Assembly (NCBI GenBank): GCA_017882125.1
Contig: JADGQC010000005.1
Span: 1 to 41,841, forward strand
Length of the DNA stretch: 41,841 bases
DNA from: Anaerolineales bacterium
GTDB taxonomy: Bacteria > Chloroflexota > Anaerolineae > Anaerolineales > Villigracilaceae
Direction of reading: 5' to 3'
In this document: piece by piece, positions 2,189 to 9,702 of the stretch
Position numbering within the stretch: position 1 is the first letter of the stretch
Layout: each line of letters opens with the position of its first letter
Notes under the pieces: generated by a model
What the model saw: only the letters and a program-made list of their open reading frames with translations
Database searches by the model: none
What the model was told of the DNA's origin: nothing
Position numbers and translations under genes: made by a program

Positions 2189-3094
2189 ATGAAATTTCGC
2201 ATTGCAGTCGCGATGCTGGCTATTTACCTGGTCTGGGGTTCGACTTACCTGGCGATTCGATTCGCAGTCGAAACAATTCCGCCTTTCATCATGGCCGGGA
2301 CGCGCTATCTGCTCCCCGGTCTGCTTCTAATGGTTTGGAGGAGACTCGCAGGAGACCCAGCCCCAACCCGCAGACAGTGGCTGTCAGGTGCAATCGTGGG
2401 ACTCTTTCTACTATTGGGCGGGAATGGACTGGTCTCATGGGCGGAACAACGAGTGGAATCGGGGATTGCTGCACTTATTATCGGCACGGTCCCAATCTGG
2501 ATGGTGATATTCGATGCAGTATTAACCCGCATAAGACCTCGCTGGCAGGTGATCATGGGGCTGCTGACCGGGTTTGGTGGCATCATCTTCCTGATCGGTC
2601 CGGAAAGTCTGTTCGGCCAACACCCGCGTTATGACCTGCTTGGCATTGGTGTTCTCGTTCTGGCGGCATTTTTATGGGCGATTGGCTCCATTTACAGTCG
2701 GGACGCCGACCTGCCCCGCTCTCCGCTCCTGGGGACCAGCATCGAGATGCTGGCCGGAAGCGTCGGGCTCTATATCGCCAGCCTGTTGACGGGCGAATGG
2801 AAAACGTTCAACGTAGGGGCTGTTTCACAGCAATCAGTATTGGGGTTGCTATACTTGATCGTATTGGGAACCCTGGTCGGGTTTGTAGCTTATACCTGGC
2901 TCCTTCGAAATGCCCCCATTTCACTGGTGTCAACTTATGCCTACGTAAACCCATTGGTCGCAATCCTGCTGGGAAACTGGTTGGTACAGGAACAGCTCAA
3001 CTGGGAGGTTGCCCTGGCAGCGGCAATCATCATCGGCTCGGTTGTCCTAATCAACTCCTTCAGGAGAAAACTGGTAAGTGCACCGGCTGACTAA
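2189..3094 (+). CDS. EamA/DMT-superfamily permease (RhaT/YedA-like)
   Basis: Inner-membrane drug/metabolite transporter of 301 residues, the usual length. It has ten predicted hydrophobic segments in two EamA repeats (about 5-140 and 155-295). The N-terminal AIYLVWGSTYLAIRFAVETI stretch is typical of the YedA-like branch. The substrate is unknown; relatives export amino acids or other small metabolites. An AAAGGA sequence lies about 10 bases before the ATG. The gene is monocistronic, with its own promoter candidate and a strong terminator, and it converges on the FGGY-kinase operon. A second, different EamA gene lies on the other side of that operon (8800-9702). Confidence 0.9.
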   Translation: MKFRIAVAMLAIYLVWGSTYLAIRFAVETIPPFIMAGTRYLLPGLLLMVWRRLAGDPAPTRRQWLSGAIVGLFLLLGGNGLVSWAEQRVESGIAALIIGTVPIWMVIFDAVLTRIRPRWQVIMGLLTGFGGIIFLIGPESLFGQHPRYDLLGIGVLVLAAFLWAIGSIYSRDADLPRSPLLGTSIEMLAGSVGLYIASLLTGEWKTFNVGAVSQQSVLGLLYLIVLGTLVGFVAYTWLLRNAPISLVSTYAYVNPLVAILLGNWLVQEQLNWEVALAAAIIIGSVVLINSFRRKLVSAPAD

Positions 3095-3108: not shown

Positions 3109-3151
3109 AATCAACCTGCCCGGTAAGAATACCCGGGCAGGTTGATTTTTT
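3109..3151 (+). terminator. Rho-independent terminator between converging genes
   Basis: Perfect 15-bp stem (3109-3123 pairs with 3133-3147) with a 9-base loop, ending in six T (3146-3151). It ends the EamA transcript. The stop codon of the opposing FGGY kinase (3150-3152) abuts it. The minus-strand side has only a short T run, so it is stronger in the plus direction. Confidence 0.9.
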
Positions 3152-4685
3152 AATTCTTCCTCATCGCCTGATACAAAGGCTGGAGTCGCTTGTACATTTG
3201 CTTATACACGCCATAATACAACTCATCATAGCGAGCATGTACCTTTATATCCGGCTCAAATGTGTCACGCACATGCGTCATCTCCCGTATGGCCGTCGGA
3301 AAATCCGGATGGACTCCGATCCCCACAGCTGCATCCATCGCGGCGCCCAGCCCAGAAGCCTCATACACGTGAGGGCGGGAAGCCGGCAAGCCGAATACAT
3401 CCGCGGTCAACTGCAATGCCGCTTCGGATTGGCTGCCCCCTCCCGCCACCCGTAATTCGGTGATAGGCACACCGGAACGTTTTGTAGTCCGCTCAGCGCC
3501 TTCACGCAGGGCATAAGCCAGGCCTTCCAGGATGGCACGATAGATGTGGGCACGCGTGGTCACGTCGCTAAAGCCGATGATGGCGCCGCGTGCTTCCGGA
3601 CCCGGGAAAACCAAGCCGGGTGACCAATAAGGCTGAAGCACCAATCCATCGGAGCCCGGTGGGATGGTACGCACCAGGTCATCGAACAAGGTTTCAGGTT
3701 CGATACCCTGCGCCTCGGCAAGCCCCTGTTCGCGCAGACCAAATTCCTGCTTGAACCAAGTCACCATCCAGTAACCGCGGTAAATCTGAATTTCAAAACT
3801 ATACTGTCCCGGGACAGCTGCAGGGTAGGGAGGAATGAGCGGTATGACTTCGATGTATTTTTTATGGGTAGTGTTGATGGTGGCAGTCGTCCCATAACTG
3901 AGGCAGGCGATATGCGGTTCCAGGCAGCCTGCTCCCAGGACTTCTGCAGCCTTATCTGCAGCGGCGGCAATCAGCGGCAGACCAGCCGGTAGACCGCTGG
4001 CAGCTGCAGCCTCTGCGGTAATCTCTCCCAGTTTGGAGGCGACCGGGATAAGCTCCGGAAGGAGGGTTTTATCAACCGGCACTGCCAACCACTTCCAGCC
4101 CCATGTAGCCTCCCAATCCTGCTTCTTGTAATCGAAGGGGATGTACCCCACCTGGGAGCCGACCGAATCGACAAACCTGCCGACCAGCCGGTAAGTTAAA
4201 TAACCTGAGAGAAACAAATACTTAAAGGAGGCCTTCCAGATCTCGGGTTGGTACTTCTGCAGCCAATTAGCCTCTGCTTCTGCTTGAACGTAAGCAACCG
4301 TTTCAGAGGCACCTGCGATCTTAAAAGCTACCCCCCAAAACCCACTTAGCGGTTTAAGTCCCTCGGTGCGTCGCTGGTCGAGCCAGTGGATGGCCGGGCG
4401 CAGCGGTTTGCCTACTTTGTCCACGTTGATGAGCGTACTGCGTTGGGTGGTGAGGCTGACGGCAGCGAGGCTGGATTTATCCACACCCTGCACCCATAAA
4501 TTTTGGCAGGCATCACAAACGGCCTTCCAGAAGACTTCGGGATCCTGCTCAGCCAGACCAGGAGCGGTGGAGTAATATGGCTCAATTGGGACCCGGGATT
4601 TATATAAGATTTTTCCACGTGGATCAAAAACGATGGCGCGCACTGATTGGGTACCGTTATCGATCGCGAGCAGGTTTTCGGGCAT
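3150..4685 (-). CDS. FGGY-family carbohydrate/polyol kinase
   Basis: ATP-dependent kinase of the hexokinase-actin fold, 511 residues, cytoplasmic. Seen: the N-terminal phosphate-binding segment [17 protein letters not shown], a substrate-lobe motif TTQRST followed by HWLDQRR, the second-domain glycine region LSYGTTATI, and the FGGY C-terminal signature region ([10 protein letters not shown], then [14 protein letters not shown]). Glycerol kinases carry NQRET where this has TTQRST, and xylulokinases carry GQMHG, so neither assignment fits. The substrate is open; a polyol, a ketose or a glycerol derivative are all possible. The start at 4685 is chosen for GGAGG five bases upstream; an in-frame ATG at 4697 lacks a Shine-Dalgarno. 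It is the last gene of the fadR-like/AGPS-like/GlpD operon, 69 bases after glpD. Confidence 0.88.
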
Positions 4686-4754
4686 GAAGGCCTCCATTAA
4701 GGGAAAGGCACCAAAGATAAATTATCCAGCCAGGGATTCTGTGGCGGATGAGAA

Positions 4755-6338
4755 TTATAGGCGATATGCCCGTTTCCATAATTCCGAATATGATTTTTCT
4801 TCAGCCTGCCAGCGGGTATCATCCCAGCCCAACTCAGGCTGGACAATGGCGCGGATGCGGGTCATTTGATCCATGCCCCCGTTGTTGACAAGCAACCCGA
4901 TCCGGACGCGACGCAGAAGCAAATCATCGAGGTGAACGACGCCTTCTTCGCGCGCTGCCTGGCGGAGTTCAGCCCAGCAATAAATAGTTCCAGCAACAGG
5001 ATCGAGGTCTTTTCCCGAGGCGGAAAACAACGCCGCCGATCCAGGTCCATAGCGCGCCAACAGGCGCAGGCATTGCGTGGGGCTGAAATTCGAGACCGCG
5101 CAGGCAGCCACAGCTTCCCGTGGGATAACGTCCAGCACGGGGACGTCCGGATCGAACGGAATATTCCCAAGGTGGCGGCGGACAGCGATTAAAGCATCGC
5201 GTGCCATGATCCGGAATGTTGTCAGTTTCCCCCCGCTGACGGTTAGCAGACCGTTCTCGTCCCAAAGGACATGCTCGCGTGATTCTTTCGAAGGGTTTGG
5301 CTTGCCTGTATTCACGACTGGACGGATCCCGGAGAAAGTGGCGGTCACATCGGCAGAAGTCAATTCCTGGGCAGGGAATACTTTCTGCAAGCCAGCCAGC
5401 AGATACTCGACTTCAAAGTCGTTAATGCAGGGATCGGTAACCAGATCCGAATCCAGGTCGACATCCGTAGTACCGAAAATTACGACCCCTTCCCAAGGAA
5501 TGGCAAAGACTGCACGACCATCTTCCGGATGAAGGAAAGTAACCGCGCGGGTCAATGGGAGGCGCTGGAAAGGAAATATTAAATGGCTGCCGCGGATCGG
5601 GCGCAACCTCGGAGCTTTCCCCACTTCGCCACGCAACCTATCCGCCCAGGCTCCGGTTGCATTTATCACCACCCGGCCTTTTATTTCCGTCCGCCTGTCT
5701 GAATCTCCGGAAGTATCAAGAAGGACCACGCCGCATACCTGCCCGGAATTTGTCTTGAGCAGGGATTCGACGCGCGCATAATTGAGAGCAAGCCCTCCAG
5801 CGGACACAGACTCGCGCAATAAACGCAAAACCAGACGGGCGTCATCGGTTTGAGCATCAAAAAAACGATACCCGCCATGCATGCGAGGTGCGGTCAGCGA
5901 AGGACAGAGTTCGCGCAAATCATCGTTGTCATACGAACGGTGACTCCATTGATGCGCCATCAAGTCATAAACGGCCAGCCCTGCTCCGAAAACCCAACCC
6001 GGCATGTGATCTCCCGGAAGGATGGGGTAAAGGAATCCCAGGCGGTTTACCAGTCCTCTGCCTTGTTTTAATAAGTATTCGCGCTCGGTCACAGATTCCA
6101 GGGTAACGCGGACCTGGGCATTTCTCAAATAGCGCATGCCACCATGGACAAGTTTCGATGAACGCGAGGACGTTCCTGAAGCGAAATCGTCCGCTTCGAA
6201 CAAAACTACCTTCAGTCCGGAATGCACACACTGACGCAGAATCCCCGCGCCGGTGATCCCACCGCCGACGATGATCACATCCCAATCCTGATTGAGTTCC
6301 GACCAGGCCCGGTCACGCCAGCCTTTTGTCCAATCCAT
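4755..6338 (-). CDS. glpD: FAD-dependent glycerol-3-phosphate dehydrogenase (GlpD/GlpA type)
   Basis: Oxidises sn-glycerol 3-phosphate to dihydroxyacetone phosphate and passes electrons to the membrane quinone pool. The 527 residues hold an N-terminal FAD-binding Rossmann motif (VGGGITGAG at 24-32), the family segment SSRSSKLVHGGMRYLRN, a central DAO domain, and the C-terminal DAO_C helical domain (LDDLLLRRVRIGLL). The start at 6338 (MDWTKGWRDRAW) has AGGAG seven bases upstream; an in-frame start at 6386 would run into the preceding gene. It follows the AGPS-like gene by 37 bases. The family is certain; the exact substrate is an inference, since GlpD paralogues acting on related phosphates exist. 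The role proposed here is supplying DHAP to the neighbouring AGPS-like flavoprotein. Confidence 0.9.
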   Translation of the reverse strand: MDWTKGWRDRAWSELNQDWDVIIVGGGITGAGILRQCVHSGLKVVLFEADDFASGTSSRSSKLVHGGMRYLRNAQVRVTLESVTEREYLLKQGRGLVNRLGFLYPILPGDHMPGWVFGAGLAVYDLMAHQWSHRSYDNDDLRELCPSLTAPRMHGGYRFFDAQTDDARLVLRLLRESVSAGGLALNYARVESLLKTNSGQVCGVVLLDTSGDSDRRTEIKGRVVINATGAWADRLRGEVGKAPRLRPIRGSHLIFPFQRLPLTRAVTFLHPEDGRAVFAIPWEGVVIFGTTDVDLDSDLVTDPCINDFEVEYLLAGLQKVFPAQELTSADVTATFSGIRPVVNTGKPNPSKESREHVLWDENGLLTVSGGKLTTFRIMARDALIAVRRHLGNIPFDPDVPVLDVIPREAVAACAVSNFSPTQCLRLLARYGPGSAALFSASGKDLDPVAGTIYCWAELRQAAREEGVVHLDDLLLRRVRIGLLVNNGGMDQMTRIRAIVQPELGWDDTRWQAEEKSYSELWKRAYRL

Positions 6339-6375
6339 GGTTGATCTCCTGGATTCCCTTCGTGCGGACGATGGT

Positions 6376-7983
6376 TCAGAAACCAAGGTCCTCGCTCAAA
6401 AACAATTTTCCAGGGTTCATCATCCCATCCGGGTCAAAAGATTTGCATACAGCGCGGATGGCATCCATACCAAGGGAACCCTTTTCTGCGGGCAGGTAAG
6501 GGGCATGATCAATGCCAACACCATGTTGGTGTGTGATCGTCCCGCCCTGTTTCTGGATCGTCAGGCTGGCTGCCTTTTTCATTGCTTGCCAGAGTGCTAA
6601 AAGTTCATCCGGGTCAGCCGGACGCCGGAAGAGGAAGGTGGTGTAGACACTGGCTCCATCACGATAAACGTGTGACAGGTGTGCAAAAGCCAGAACCTTC
6701 GCTCCAAAATTACCCGCAGCCTCTATTATGGCGGCTGGAATTGCCTCTGAAGCTGCCATAACTTTGGACCAAGGGAGAGCAGTTTCGGCTGTGTCGATCG
6801 CCACACCCAGGTCCCAGAGCGTATTGCGCAGGTAGGGGGAGTAAAAGCGACTCTTTTCCCAGGTGTGACCGACAACCGTGCCGACAAAAAGTCCTCCCTG
6901 TCTGCGGCATATGGATGAAGTCTGTGCCCTAACATTTCGCACATGACCAGCGGACCCCGTCGCTCCAAAAACCAGGAGGCAGCGCATCCTGCCATAACCG
7001 ATCAAGCGCAGACCCTTATCTGCGGCGCCAACCCAGGATTTTCCGGAAAGAATCAAGGTGGTCTCTGTTTCCTGCGGGTTGGAGAGTCTCAGCATAGACA
7101 CAGGGACTTCATCCTGAGCAACCTTGCGGACCGCCTGAGTACCCTGCTCCCAGGTGGGGAAAAAGACTCCGTAGAATTCCTCTGCTTCGGGAACCTGGCA
7201 CAGCCTGACCTTCGCCTGGGTTATGACTCCCATGCGTCCTTCTGATCCAAGGACCATCTCTTTAACATCAGGCCCTGCTGCAGAAGCCGGGAAATGGGGG
7301 ATTTCCAACATCCCGCGTGGGGTCTGCATCCGTCCCCCGGCGAATAACTGTTCAATCCGCCCATATTTGTAAGATTGCTGACCCGAGGAACGGGTGGCGA
7401 TCCAACCTCCCAAAGTTGAATACTCGTGCGATTGCGGGTAATGCCCGAGTGTGTAGCCATTCTCTTTTAATACCTTTTCCAATTCCGGACCGGTGACTCC
7501 AGCCTCGAACGTTGCCGTGCGCCCGAATTCGTCCAATGAAAGTAGACGCGTCATGTGTTCCAGTGAAAGCGTCAGCACCGGCATATCCGATTTTGAAGGA
7601 TTAATATGTCCGACCACACTTGTCCCGCCTCCATAAGGAATTACTTTGGCTCCCACCTTTTGGGCATAATTCATTAAATCTGTTACATCCTCTTCATTGC
7701 CGGGATTGGCGACACCATCAGGAAACGCGCCGATCCGACCCGAACGAAGAGCCACCCAGTCAGGCATGGATTGACCACGGGCATGGGTTAGTCGCGCTTC
7801 TGGAGAACTATCTATTAGATTATGGTAGTGAAGATGGGTGGCAGGCACTGATTTAAGAACAGTCTCGAAAACGGCATCCGGCTGAGGATCCAAAGTTCCA
7901 AATAAGGAGGTGAGATATGCCCTTGCTGAATCTGGAACCGGGTATTCGGTTTTAATATTGCCCCACCCGTTCCAGCGCTTCAT
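6376..7983 (-). CDS. FAD-binding oxidase resembling alkyl-dihydroxyacetonephosphate synthase (AGPS)
   Basis: Flavoprotein of the VAO/PCMH fold, 535 residues. The FAD-pyrophosphate loop PYGGGTSVVGH lies near 114-124. Further AGPS-like segments follow: GHYPQSHEYSTLGGWIATRSSG, a PASAAGPD-to-LGSEG stretch and KSFDPDGMMNPGKL at the C-terminus. These resemble eukaryotic AGPS more than GlcD or D-lactate dehydrogenase. AGPS exchanges the acyl chain of acyl-DHAP for a fatty alcohol to form the ether bond. The tri-His motif of AGPS reads His485-Gln486-His487 here, so chemistry may differ. The true start is ATG 7983 with AAGGAGG upstream; its ATG overlaps the stop of the fadR-like gene (ATGA), so the two are translationally coupled. 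Bacterial members are mostly uncharacterised. The FAD-oxidase call is firm; AGPS activity is a hypothesis. Confidence 0.8.
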   Translation of the reverse strand: MKRWNGWGNIKTEYPVPDSARAYLTSLFGTLDPQPDAVFETVLKSVPATHLHYHNLIDSSPEARLTHARGQSMPDWVALRSGRIGAFPDGVANPGNEEDVTDLMNYAQKVGAKVIPYGGGTSVVGHINPSKSDMPVLTLSLEHMTRLLSLDEFGRTATFEAGVTGPELEKVLKENGYTLGHYPQSHEYSTLGGWIATRSSGQQSYKYGRIEQLFAGGRMQTPRGMLEIPHFPASAAGPDVKEMVLGSEGRMGVITQAKVRLCQVPEAEEFYGVFFPTWEQGTQAVRKVAQDEVPVSMLRLSNPQETETTLILSGKSWVGAADKGLRLIGYGRMRCLLVFGATGSAGHVRNVRAQTSSICRRQGGLFVGTVVGHTWEKSRFYSPYLRNTLWDLGVAIDTAETALPWSKVMAASEAIPAAIIEAAGNFGAKVLAFAHLSHVYRDGASVYTTFLFRRPADPDELLALWQAMKKAASLTIQKQGGTITHQHGVGIDHAPYLPAEKGSLGMDAIRAVCKSFDPDGMMNPGKLFLSEDLGF

Positions 7984-8678
7984 TTGGCCTCCTTTTGCAT
8001 TTTTTGCCACAACTCCAGGCTCTCTTCCATGATCCGGCGGGTAAGGGTTTCGGCATCGAAGGCTGCACCCGTTCGGGCGCAATCAAGCAACTCCGCATAG
8101 AAATTTCGTGAATGCTGACGGCACGCCGGGAAAGCAAAATATTGCTCTCCAATGGTTATCGACAGTTTCTGGAAGCCGTTGAAGAGAAAACGGAATATTG
8201 GATTTGGTGTCAGCTGGGTAAGACGCATGTGCAAGTCCCAGTCGGCGCGAGCGAACGCAGATGAATTCTCTTCCAGATGTGGATAGGTTTCCAGCAAAGC
8301 AACTACTTCCTCTGCGGCGGCCTCAATAGCCTGGCGAGTGTATGCTGGAGCCACCAGAACGCGAAACTCAAGCAAATGGGTCACAAAATCTGGTGATTGG
8401 CATACAGAGGTCTGAGCAAGTACTGCAAGAACGGCCAAACCTCCTTCCTGCCAGTAATCGCGGACACGGGTGGGCTTGCCATGCTGAATATTCAGCCACC
8501 CATCGCGGGCCAATCGCTGGAGCGCTTCACGCAGGGTTGGGCGGGTCACGCCGACCAGGTCGGCAAGATCTCGTTCGCCGGGAAGGCTGCTGTTGATAGG
8601 GAAATGCCCGGACAAGATGGCTTCGAGCAGGCGGCTTTCAGCCATTTCAGCGGGTTTTTGAAGGGTCTGCCAATCCAT
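7980..8678 (-). CDS. FadR-like GntR-family transcriptional regulator, probably acyl-CoA responsive
   Basis: DNA-binding repressor/activator of 232 residues (E. coli FadR has 239). Residues 10-70 are a winged helix almost superimposable on FadR: GERDLADLVGVTRPTLREAL then RLARDGWLNIQHGKPTRV. The FadR DNA contacts R35, T44, R45, R49 and H65 appear as R36, T45, R46, R50 and H66; only T46 is changed (P47). The C-terminal half follows the acyl-CoA-binding FadR_C domain, not FCD: NPIFRFLFNGFQKL, QYFAFPACR, and EESLELW keeping the counterparts of S219 and W223. AAGGAG precedes the ATG at 8678. It is first in the operon, and a FadR-type palindrome lies 12 bases upstream, so autoregulation is likely. 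True FadR is best known in Gammaproteobacteria, so its presence here is notable. Confidence 0.88.
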   Translation of the reverse strand: MDWQTLQKPAEMAESRLLEAILSGHFPINSSLPGERDLADLVGVTRPTLREALQRLARDGWLNIQHGKPTRVRDYWQEGGLAVLAVLAQTSVCQSPDFVTHLLEFRVLVAPAYTRQAIEAAAEEVVALLETYPHLEENSSAFARADWDLHMRLTQLTPNPIFRFLFNGFQKLSITIGEQYFAFPACRQHSRNFYAELLDCARTGAAFDAETLTRRIMEESLELWQKMQKEAK

Positions 8679-8689
8679 GTCTACTCCTT

Positions 8690-8711
8690 ACTGGTAAGTG
8701 GTCTTACCAGT
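8690..8711. promoter_or_regulatory. FadR-type operator palindrome
   Basis: A perfect 9-bp inverted repeat, ACTGGTAAG (8690-8698) and CTTACCAGT (8703-8711), surrounds TGGT. Inside it is TGGT-CTT-ACCA at 8699-8709, the TGGT-N3-ACCA core of E. coli FadR operators. It lies between the divergent fadR-like and EamA genes, touches the fadR-like Shine-Dalgarno, and would sit just downstream of the predicted start of transcription. Confidence 0.75.
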
Positions 8712-8728
8712 CAAAGGATACCATTTTT

Positions 8729-8758
8729 AGAATATCAAAGTCTAGTGTTGATTGTCAC
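8729..8758 (-). promoter_or_regulatory. candidate promoter of the fadR-like operon
   Basis: On the minus strand, GTGACA (8758-8753) and TATTCT (8734-8729) are separated by 18 bases. Transcription would start near 8722, which places the palindrome at 8690-8711 at roughly +11 to +32, a position where a bound repressor blocks elongation or initiation. Confidence 0.4.
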
Positions 8759-8799
8759 ATTTCAAATTGCCCCTCAAATTGCCCTGTATACATCGACAC

Positions 8800-9702
8800 A
8801 TGCGCGCTACCAAGCAGCACACAAAGGCGATTCTGCAGGCGATTTTTGTCACCATCCTGTGGTCCACTTCATGGATCCTGATCAAGGTGGGTTTGCATGA
8901 CAACCTGCCGCCCATCACTTTTGCAGGGCTGCGTTACACGCTCGCGTTTATTTGCCTGGCGCCATTTGTGTTTGTCAATTCTTCCCACCGGACTGTGTTG
9001 AAACAAATGAGTGCTAGAAATTGGGGCAAACTAGCCCTGCTGGGTGTGGTTTATTACACCCTTACCCAGGGAGCCATGTTCCTGGCGTTGGCATTTTTAC
9101 CCGCAAACATGGTCAGTTTATTGCTTAACCTGACCTCGATCTTCGTTGGAATTGCCGGGATCAGCCTGCTCAAGGAATCCCCGTCACGGCTGCAATGGTT
9201 CGGAATTGGGCTGGCAGGACTTGGCGTTGGCGTTTACTTCATTCCAATCGATCTTCCACAGCTCCAGTTGACCGGGTTGGGAATCGGATTGTTTTGCATG
9301 ATGATGAATGTGGTATCCTCCCTTTTCAGCCGGGAAATGAACCGGGATGCAATTCTCCCGCCACTGGTGGTAACCTTTATCAGCATGGGAGTCGGATCGA
9401 TATTGATGCTCATCACCGGGCTGGTTATTCAAGGGTTCGGCACGGCAACAGGGTTGGACTGGGTCATCATCGCCTGGATGGCTGTAGCCAACACTGCCCT
9501 GGCATTTACGTTATGGAACCGGACCCTGCAAGTGTTGACAGCTGTGGAGTCATCCATTCTTAACAGCTTGATGATGCCTCAAATTGCCATCCTGGCTTTC
9601 GTTTTCCTGGGGGAAGGGTTAACCAGCAAAGCCATTGCCGGGCTGGCGCTGGTGGGGGTTGGGACACTGGTTGTGCAACTAAAACCGCACGATAACATGT
9701 AG
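8800..9702 (+). CDS. EamA/DMT-superfamily permease, divergent from the fadR-like gene
   Basis: Membrane transporter of 300 residues with two EamA repeats (about 8-135 and 150-290). The first opens with AILQAIFVTILWSTSWILIK, typical of the family. ATG 8800 is preferred because the protein then starts with a short basic tail before membrane segment 1; a TTG at 8752 would add 16 residues. No clear Shine-Dalgarno is visible. It shares a 121-base intergenic region, including the FadR-type palindrome, with the operon on the other strand, so it may belong to the same regulon and move its substrate or product. The substrate is not predictable from sequence. The nuclease gene follows after 8 bases. 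Confidence 0.9.
   Translation: MRATKQHTKAILQAIFVTILWSTSWILIKVGLHDNLPPITFAGLRYTLAFICLAPFVFVNSSHRTVLKQMSARNWGKLALLGVVYYTLTQGAMFLALAFLPANMVSLLLNLTSIFVGIAGISLLKESPSRLQWFGIGLAGLGVGVYFIPIDLPQLQLTGLGIGLFCMMMNVVSSLFSREMNRDAILPPLVVTFISMGVGSILMLITGLVIQGFGTATGLDWVIIAWMAVANTALAFTLWNRTLQVLTAVESSILNSLMMPQIAILAFVFLGEGLTSKAIAGLALVGVGTLVVQLKPHDNM

Follow-up and report, generated by a model that had tools for sequence, protein, structure and literature searches.

An operon joining an AGPS-family flavoenzyme, a GlpD-type dehydrogenase and an FGGY kinase under a FadR-type regulator in an Anaerolineales bacterium: a possible salvage module for 1-O-substituted glycerols

In which direction does a bacterial pathway run when a relative of alkylglycerone-phosphate synthase (AGPS) is encoded together with a GlpD-type dehydrogenase, an FGGY-family kinase and a FadR-type regulator? 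This question is raised by a minus-strand operon in a 41,841-nucleotide stretch of the draft genome of an Anaerolineales bacterium (assembly GCA_017882125.1, contig JADGQC010000005.1; hereafter the window). An initial annotation, made from the sequence, had read the locus as ether-lipid biosynthesis and named alkylglycerol catabolism as an alternative; judged by gene content, it is the alternative that fits better. Our tentative reading, held with somewhat less than even confidence, is that of a FadR-controlled module that salvages 1-O-substituted glycerols, the likeliest being 1-O-alkylglycerols and their phosphates, and that would thereby run the eukaryotic ether-lipid pathway in reverse. 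We infer the substrate, the direction, the ether cleavage and the FadR ligand from sequence, predicted structure and gene order.

The locus comprises the following elements:

8715..8744, minus strand: promoter-like TAGACT-N18-TATCCT just upstream of the operator, read by eye from the sequence with no tool score
8689..8712, minus strand: predicted FadR operator, core ACTGGTAAGACCACTTACCAGT at 8690-8711, with about 10 bp between its end and the start codon of fadR
7980..8678, minus strand: FadR-family GntR regulator, 232 aa (Pfam, NCBIfam, alignment to E. coli FadR)
6376..7983, minus strand: AGPS-family FAD enzyme, 535 aa from ATG 7983
4755..6338, minus strand: GlpD-type FAD sn-glycerol-3-phosphate dehydrogenase, 527 aa from ATG 6338
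3150..4697, minus strand: FGGY-family kinase, with a likelier start at ATG 4685, preceded by GGAGG

All four reading frames lie where the initial annotation had placed its operon, and their domain content is as it described: Pfam assigned FadR_C (119.5 bits) and GntR to the regulator, FAD_binding_4 and FAD-oxidase_C to the AGPS-like protein, DAO and DAO_C to the dehydrogenase, and FGGY_N and FGGY_C to the kinase. The fadR stop and the AGPS-like start share 4 bp as ATGA, followed by gaps of 37 bp before the GlpD gene and of 57-69 bp before the FGGY gene, depending on the start chosen for the latter. The AGPS-like gene is present in a single copy in the 2.8 Mb draft genome. The gene order is not due to chance: it is kept, at 45-90% identity, across the Chloroflexota and also in other phyla, where FadR is mostly missing.

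Is the flavoenzyme a relative of AGPS at all, or an ordinary D-hydroxy-acid oxidase of the GlcD/D-lactate type, which would make the cluster an ordinary oxidation operon? The oxidases have FAD_binding_4 and FAD-oxidase_C in common with it, and the GlcD model matches the window protein at 131 bits. This score is far below the curated cut-off of 567.9, however, and the AGPS structures scored much higher (Dictyostelium ADPS, 283 bits; guinea-pig AGPS, 219 bits) than D-lactate dehydrogenase, the next best at 97 bits. Where the EHG motif of GlcD has Glu, the window protein has Gln, and the AGPS tyrosine and arginines are in place. Contradicted by both sequence and fold, the oxidase assignment can hardly be right, and we rejected it.

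A structural model of the AGPS-like protein, built on 17 sequences (mean pLDDT 83), was aligned with VIA-align and showed a full-length AGPS fold (Z 40.0, rmsd 2.0, 509 residues, model residues 1-528) in the comparison that the initial annotation had proposed. With D-lactate dehydrogenase the Z score was 30.5 and the alignment began only at residue 49, the first 48 residues belonging to an N-terminal part that this enzyme lacks. In Dictyostelium ADPS, R352, R447 and Y508 are essential by mutagenesis (PMC3509576); the corresponding R299, R386 and Y447 of the window protein are invariant in 17 diverse operon-type members, and guinea-pig R182, H300, T309, W313, R317, R419, R515, Y578, H615 and H617 are matched at the equivalent positions, both in the window protein and in almost all operon members. 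Across thirteen key AGPS sites the window reads RHTWRRRESYHQH and the guinea-pig enzyme RHTWRRRETYHHH. The sole consistent change in the catalytic triad is at its middle position, where guinea-pig HHH (615-617) has become HQH in the window (Gln486 at the His616 position) and in nearly all operon members, HHH being kept in L128, L131 and L161. In a maximum-likelihood tree the operon proteins formed one clade (100/100), apart from the eukaryotic clade, myxobacterial AGPS and several other bacterial groups. By sequence, predicted fold and catalytic residues, the enzyme is thus assigned to the AGPS family and is not GlcD-like, in agreement with the kinship first claimed for it. It resembles eukaryotic-type AGPS/ADPS (guinea pig 4BBY, Dictyostelium 2UUU) in its full-length predicted fold, its catalytic Tyr and Arg residues and its GGWI-TR-SG and H-x-HGVG motifs, and differs in its 28-33% identity, its separate clade, the Gln in the triad and the absence of peroxisomal partner enzymes.

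What substrate would reach this enzyme? The sn-glycerol-3-phosphate (G3P) binding residues of E. coli GlpD, which we take to be H50, R54, Y55, R317, R332 and K354, all occur in the window GlpD and do not vary, where aligned, among 92 operon GlpDs, suggesting that the GlpD-type site still takes the glycerol-3-phosphate end. The window GlpD scored below the curated equivalog cut-offs (PRK12266, 263.7 against 360; PRK13369, 231 against 352). The kinase passed no curated equivalog, neither GlpK (159.7 against 590.35 bits) nor XylB, and is nearest to E. coli YgcE (31% identity, 230 bits), with GlpK at 117 and XylB at 97 bits. Its predicted fold is that of the FGGY family, with LsrK, glycerol kinases and sugar kinases level at Z 37-38, which makes the fold no guide to the substrate. 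Of the GlpK residues that presumably contact glycerol (R83, E84, W103, D245 and Q246), the operon kinase retains R83, W103 and D245; the E84 position is Ser, Gly or Ala in 54 of 56 operon kinases, and the Q246 position is Lys in 55 of 56. A small residue at the former would open the kinase on the side where a 1-O-substituent would sit. Elsewhere in its genome the bacterium carries a glpK that is canonical by its score (758 bits, cut-off 590), and the gene immediately after it encodes a second GlpD homologue. Because of this separate pair, and because the kinase is not a GlpK, the operon pair is unlikely to serve plain glycerol, and we set aside plain glycerol utilization as its role. The formation of plain DHAP (dihydroxyacetone phosphate) from glycerol, which the initial annotation had assigned to these two enzymes, is disfavored by the same pair and by the YgcE-like kinase with its changed Glu84 and Gln246 positions.

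These observations bear directly on the biosynthetic route, proposed both in the initial annotation and by Kotecka et al., in which the kinase and GlpD convert glycerol to DHAP, this DHAP is acylated by an acyltransferase encoded elsewhere, and the AGPS-like enzyme exchanges acyl for alkyl to start an ether lipid. The route gains from the full set of AGPS-type catalytic residues, from having been put forward for Pseudomonas aeruginosa PA3026-PA3024 (PMC8151288) and from the slight contribution of a Myxococcus xanthus AGPS homologue to ether lipids (PMC9131029). Apart from the kinase and the canonical glpK-glpD pair, it has to contend with glycolysis, which already supplies DHAP, and with the position of the operon clade apart from eukaryotic and myxobacterial AGPS, Archangium holding both kinds.

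Gene content adds a further difficulty. An ether-lipid pathway built on AGPS also requires an acyltransferase for the preceding step and a ketone reductase for the following one. Neither an acyltransferase nor a reductase is encoded in the window operon, whereas in G018, a genome of the window's family (L213:1072-4539), a eukaryote-like AGPS gene, its product 46% identical to guinea-pig AGPS over 500 residues, lies between genes for a PF01553 (GNPAT-like) acyltransferase and a short-chain dehydrogenase (SDR). This locus in an Anaerolineae-like bin resembles a bacterial operon for making ether lipids. Taken together, we regard synthesis from glycerol as quite unlikely. Synthesis could also proceed without GNPAT, if the kinase acted on monoacylglycerol, the GlpD-like enzyme oxidized 1-acyl-G3P to acyl-DHAP and the AGPS-like enzyme converted this to alkyl-DHAP. 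Such a scheme uses all three enzymes in series, which would explain their joint travel, agrees with the small residue at the Glu84 position of the kinase and supplies FadR with an acyl ligand. However, the alkyl-DHAP reductase and the fatty alcohol would have to come from elsewhere, and quinone-linked oxidation of G3P derivatives followed by re-reduction would be wasteful; we consider it very unlikely.

The salvage of 1-O-substituted glycerols fits because the kinase and the oxidizing GlpD run from the glycerol level to the DHAP level. The FGGY kinase would phosphorylate a free 1-O-substituted glycerol at the sn-3 position, and the GlpD-type enzyme would oxidize C2 to yield 1-O-substituted DHAP, such as alkyl-DHAP. 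The AGPS-type flavoenzyme would then remove a C1 hydrogen, bind C1 to flavin N5 and expel the O-substituent, releasing a fatty alcohol, or a fatty acid if the substituent is acyl, and leaving DHAP with water as the acceptor or acyl-DHAP with a fatty acid as the acceptor. FadR would occupy the promoter operator and depart once a lipid ligand, probably acyl-CoA, appears. Consistent with lipid breakdown, the phospholipase C PA3464 is co-induced with the PA3026-PA3024 operon (PMC8151288).

A different catabolic role, on a small non-lipid polyol or glycerol conjugate, is suggested by the E. coli ygcU-ygcW-ygcE cluster. Here the AGPS-like enzyme would dehydrogenate or, as a lyase, cleave a phosphorylated keto compound, a role that YgcU may have too. 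Both systems contain an AGPS-like flavoprotein and a related FGGY kinase, with a common DK..E.LGAG motif; the operon kinase is nearest to YgcE, as noted above, and the flavoenzyme scored 138 bits against YgcU and 69 bits against GlcD. The E. coli cluster also encodes sugar-type major facilitator superfamily (MFS) transporters and a glycerol-3-phosphate antiterminator, and pairs of EryA/EryB-type kinases and GlpD-like enzymes are known for erythritol. The resemblance is distant, however (25% identity for YgcU and 31% for YgcE), and the E. coli cluster has an SDR and MFS transporters instead of an adjoining canonical GlpD. The operon contains no transporter, its regulator is of the FadR type, and induction of the Pseudomonas operon is accompanied by that of lipid genes (PMC8151288). 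We judge a polyol substrate unlikely.

How widely is the gene set conserved? Among 61 genomes, comprising the window's own and 60 relatives, the operon-type AGPS clade was found in 18, and the gene is common across Chloroflexota, where AGPS and GlpD are nearly always adjacent and FGGY and FadR are frequent yet optional. In a scan of public genomes covering 80 loci, which are best matches rather than a random sample and in which contig ends lower the counts, GlpD adjoined AGPS in 74, while 44 had a downstream FGGY gene and 29 an upstream FadR gene. These loci include Pseudomonas, Undibacterium, Herbaspirillum, Massilia, Marinobacter and Saccharospirillum as well as Archangium, Acidobacteria and Desulfobacteraceae records, some being metagenome bins whose names may be wrong and whose content may be incomplete or mixed. 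The neighborhood search called for in the initial annotation thus reveals a widespread AGPS-GlpD pairing, which stays joined across Chloroflexota, Pseudomonadota, Myxococcota and others, with a kinase and a FadR that come and go. An operon-type FGGY kinase was absent from the whole genome in 13 of 14 AGPS-GlpD genomes checked, nearly all lacking a linked kinase, indicating that AGPS and GlpD form the core. Besides regulators, the fetched loci had no further conserved neighbors. Single gammaproteobacterial bins provide lipid hints in the form of an acyltransferase gene upstream of the operon (L147:8565-9425) and an acyl-CoA synthetase gene divergent to it (L168:7943-9643); a HAD hydrolase in L163 is likewise a single case. 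Co-occurrence with acyl-CoA dehydrogenase was uninformative, as nearly all relatives have this enzyme. In a same-genus genome the AGPS-like gene is broken by an apparent frameshift (G004:C450:7584-9190).

Does the regulator behave like FadR? It matched E. coli FadR across both domains (166 bits), scoring over the cut-off of NCBIfam model NF003444 (216.9 against 189) and under that of the stricter TIGR02812 (210 against 249.2). Based on the DNA-contact and acyl-CoA residues listed for E. coli FadR (PMC4259882), the window protein retains R35, T44, R45, T47, R49 and H65, has Pro in place of T46 and carries S220 and W224 as counterparts of Ser219 and Trp223. The initial annotation was right about the kinship across both domains, seen in the Pfam matches and the alignment, and about these two pocket residues; the third, Gly216, is Met in the window, and among 38 operon FadRs this position is Met in 37, Ile in one and Gly in none. 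The Phe149 position is His or Gln, Phe being replaced in all members. With one of the three known acyl-CoA residues replaced throughout the family, the acyl-CoA control that the initial annotation assigned to the whole operon is putative; in the salvage reading the inducer would be a lipid ligand, probably acyl-CoA.

Upstream of fadR we found a conserved predicted operator (consensus AACTGGTnnGACCnCTTACCAGTT), in line with the FadR-type control assumed from the outset. The window copy (8690-8711) is a perfect 9-bp inverted repeat enclosing a TGGT-N3-ACCA core. At five or fewer mismatches out of 21, the operator was present in 35 of 38 distinct FadR-led loci, 28 of them at two or fewer; in 64 FadR-less copies it was not found once (best, 8 mismatches). 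The E. coli FadR site is aaCTGGTCnGACC(T/A)Gtt, with the core CTGGTCnGACC (PMC9329746); the operon operator contains this core and resembles the whole site. This core is also used by LldR sites (PMC10272880). In L077, L078 and L079 the operator is reversed (e.g. AACTGGTAAGTGGTCTGACCAGTT), which suggests that either side may hold the third half-site. TTGACA/TATAAT-like hexamers occur at the promoter-equivalent place in many relatives, and because the operator comes after the -10 region, the operon FadR is probably an autorepressor. When 12 genomes were searched whole, the operator was found at 0-1 mismatch in 10, once each, at the AGPS operon or (G022) beside fadR at a contig end, and no second site of this quality was found in any of the 12, though weaker ones may exist; we therefore rejected a wider regulon with fatty-acid genes under global control. 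In the 61 genomes, each of the ten strong FadR matches likewise sits with an AGPS-like operon or at a contig end. The single operator per genome and the placement of the strong FadRs thus characterize the operon FadR as an apparently dedicated local switch. It shares with E. coli FadR both domains, the DNA contacts except T46, Ser219, Trp223 and a TGGTCnGACC core in its operator, and differs in regulating one operon locally, in the replacement of Gly216 and Phe149 in all members and in the longer palindrome of its operator.

Several points weigh against the salvage of 1-O-substituted glycerols. That AGPS chemistry can be reversed toward ether cleavage is something we infer from its covalent mechanism. 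The His616 of the triad is replaced by Gln in nearly all members, and Gly216, one of the three critical acyl-CoA residues of FadR, is replaced throughout the operon FadRs. The kinase step is not universal, given the 13 AGPS-GlpD genomes without such an FGGY protein, and the sugar-type transporters of the E. coli ygc cluster point to a smaller polar substrate. Deletion of PA3026-PA3024 caused no phenotype, Biolog plates included (PMC8151288). A literature search found no paper on AGPS reversibility, nor on FadR in Chloroflexi.

How much of this was known? The initial annotation had held that its route would be new; in fact, Kotecka et al. (2021) had already proposed a route from glycerol to alkylglycerone phosphate for the same trio in P. 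aeruginosa, PA3026-PA3024 under GliR (PA3027), an arrangement that they reported in only about a dozen genomes (PMC8151288), and the M. xanthus AGPS homologue mentioned above, MXAN_1676, has a small effect on ether lipids beside the main enzyme ElbD (PMC9131029). The Pseudomonas operon has the same order and orientation of FAD oxidoreductase, GlpD and FGGY kinase, and the genes of Pseudomonas loci of this type (L156, L164, L165) show 45-62% identity to those of the window; it differs in a divergent AraC activator, GliR (the divergent AraC gene of L164 has an Arabinose_bd domain), in contrast to the in-operon FadR of the window, in the lack of a FadR operator and in a YegS-like lipid kinase nearby. 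MXAN_1676, also a bacterial AGPS homologue, has different partners, a FAR/GNPAT-like fusion and an epimerase-family protein (PMC9131029), and Archangium L194, taken as its counterpart, falls in another clade, one genome holding both it and the operon type. The new findings are how widely the operon occurs, that its AGPS groups apart from the eukaryote-like and myxobacterial enzymes, that FadR is paired with its operator and that kinase and FadR carry residue changes, together with the argument for a catabolic direction.

Two neighboring subjects can be noted. EamA-type transporter genes lie on the plus strand on either side of the operon (2189-3094 and 8752-9702, the latter divergent from fadR), and neither is conserved as an operon neighbor. 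DUF2804 genes are more frequent in relatives that carry the operon (11 of 18 genomes) than in the others (5 of 43; p ~0.0002 with relatedness ignored), and G004, G007, G009, G010, G016, G027 and G033 are among the genomes that have them; a member is divergent to the myxobacterial AGPS in Archangium (L214:8259-9260), and another, PA3342, belongs to the Pseudomonas GliR regulon. The Chloroflexota genes lie beside MFS, GH2 and hydantoinase genes and carry no FadR box, and no DUF2804 gene was found in the window's own genome. We therefore did not accept it as a fourth component and leave it as a lead.

The enzyme AGMO needs tetrahydrobiopterin. It also uses O2 and has been described as the only known alkylglycerol-degrading enzyme (PMC7911779). 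An oxygen-independent, flavin-dependent cleavage of glycerol ethers by kinase, GlpD-type oxidation and reverse AGPS, in groundwater, sediment and other bacteria that consume ether lipids, is on the doubtful side, and, if true, would be new. AGPS homologues in environmental genomes, for example in Black Sea metagenomes, are taken as markers of ether-lipid or plasmalogen makers (PMC11868695); if this common bacterial subfamily is in fact degradative, such conclusions would need revision. Copies of the operon under FadR control can be recognized by the conserved operator, which also makes their inducer directly testable.

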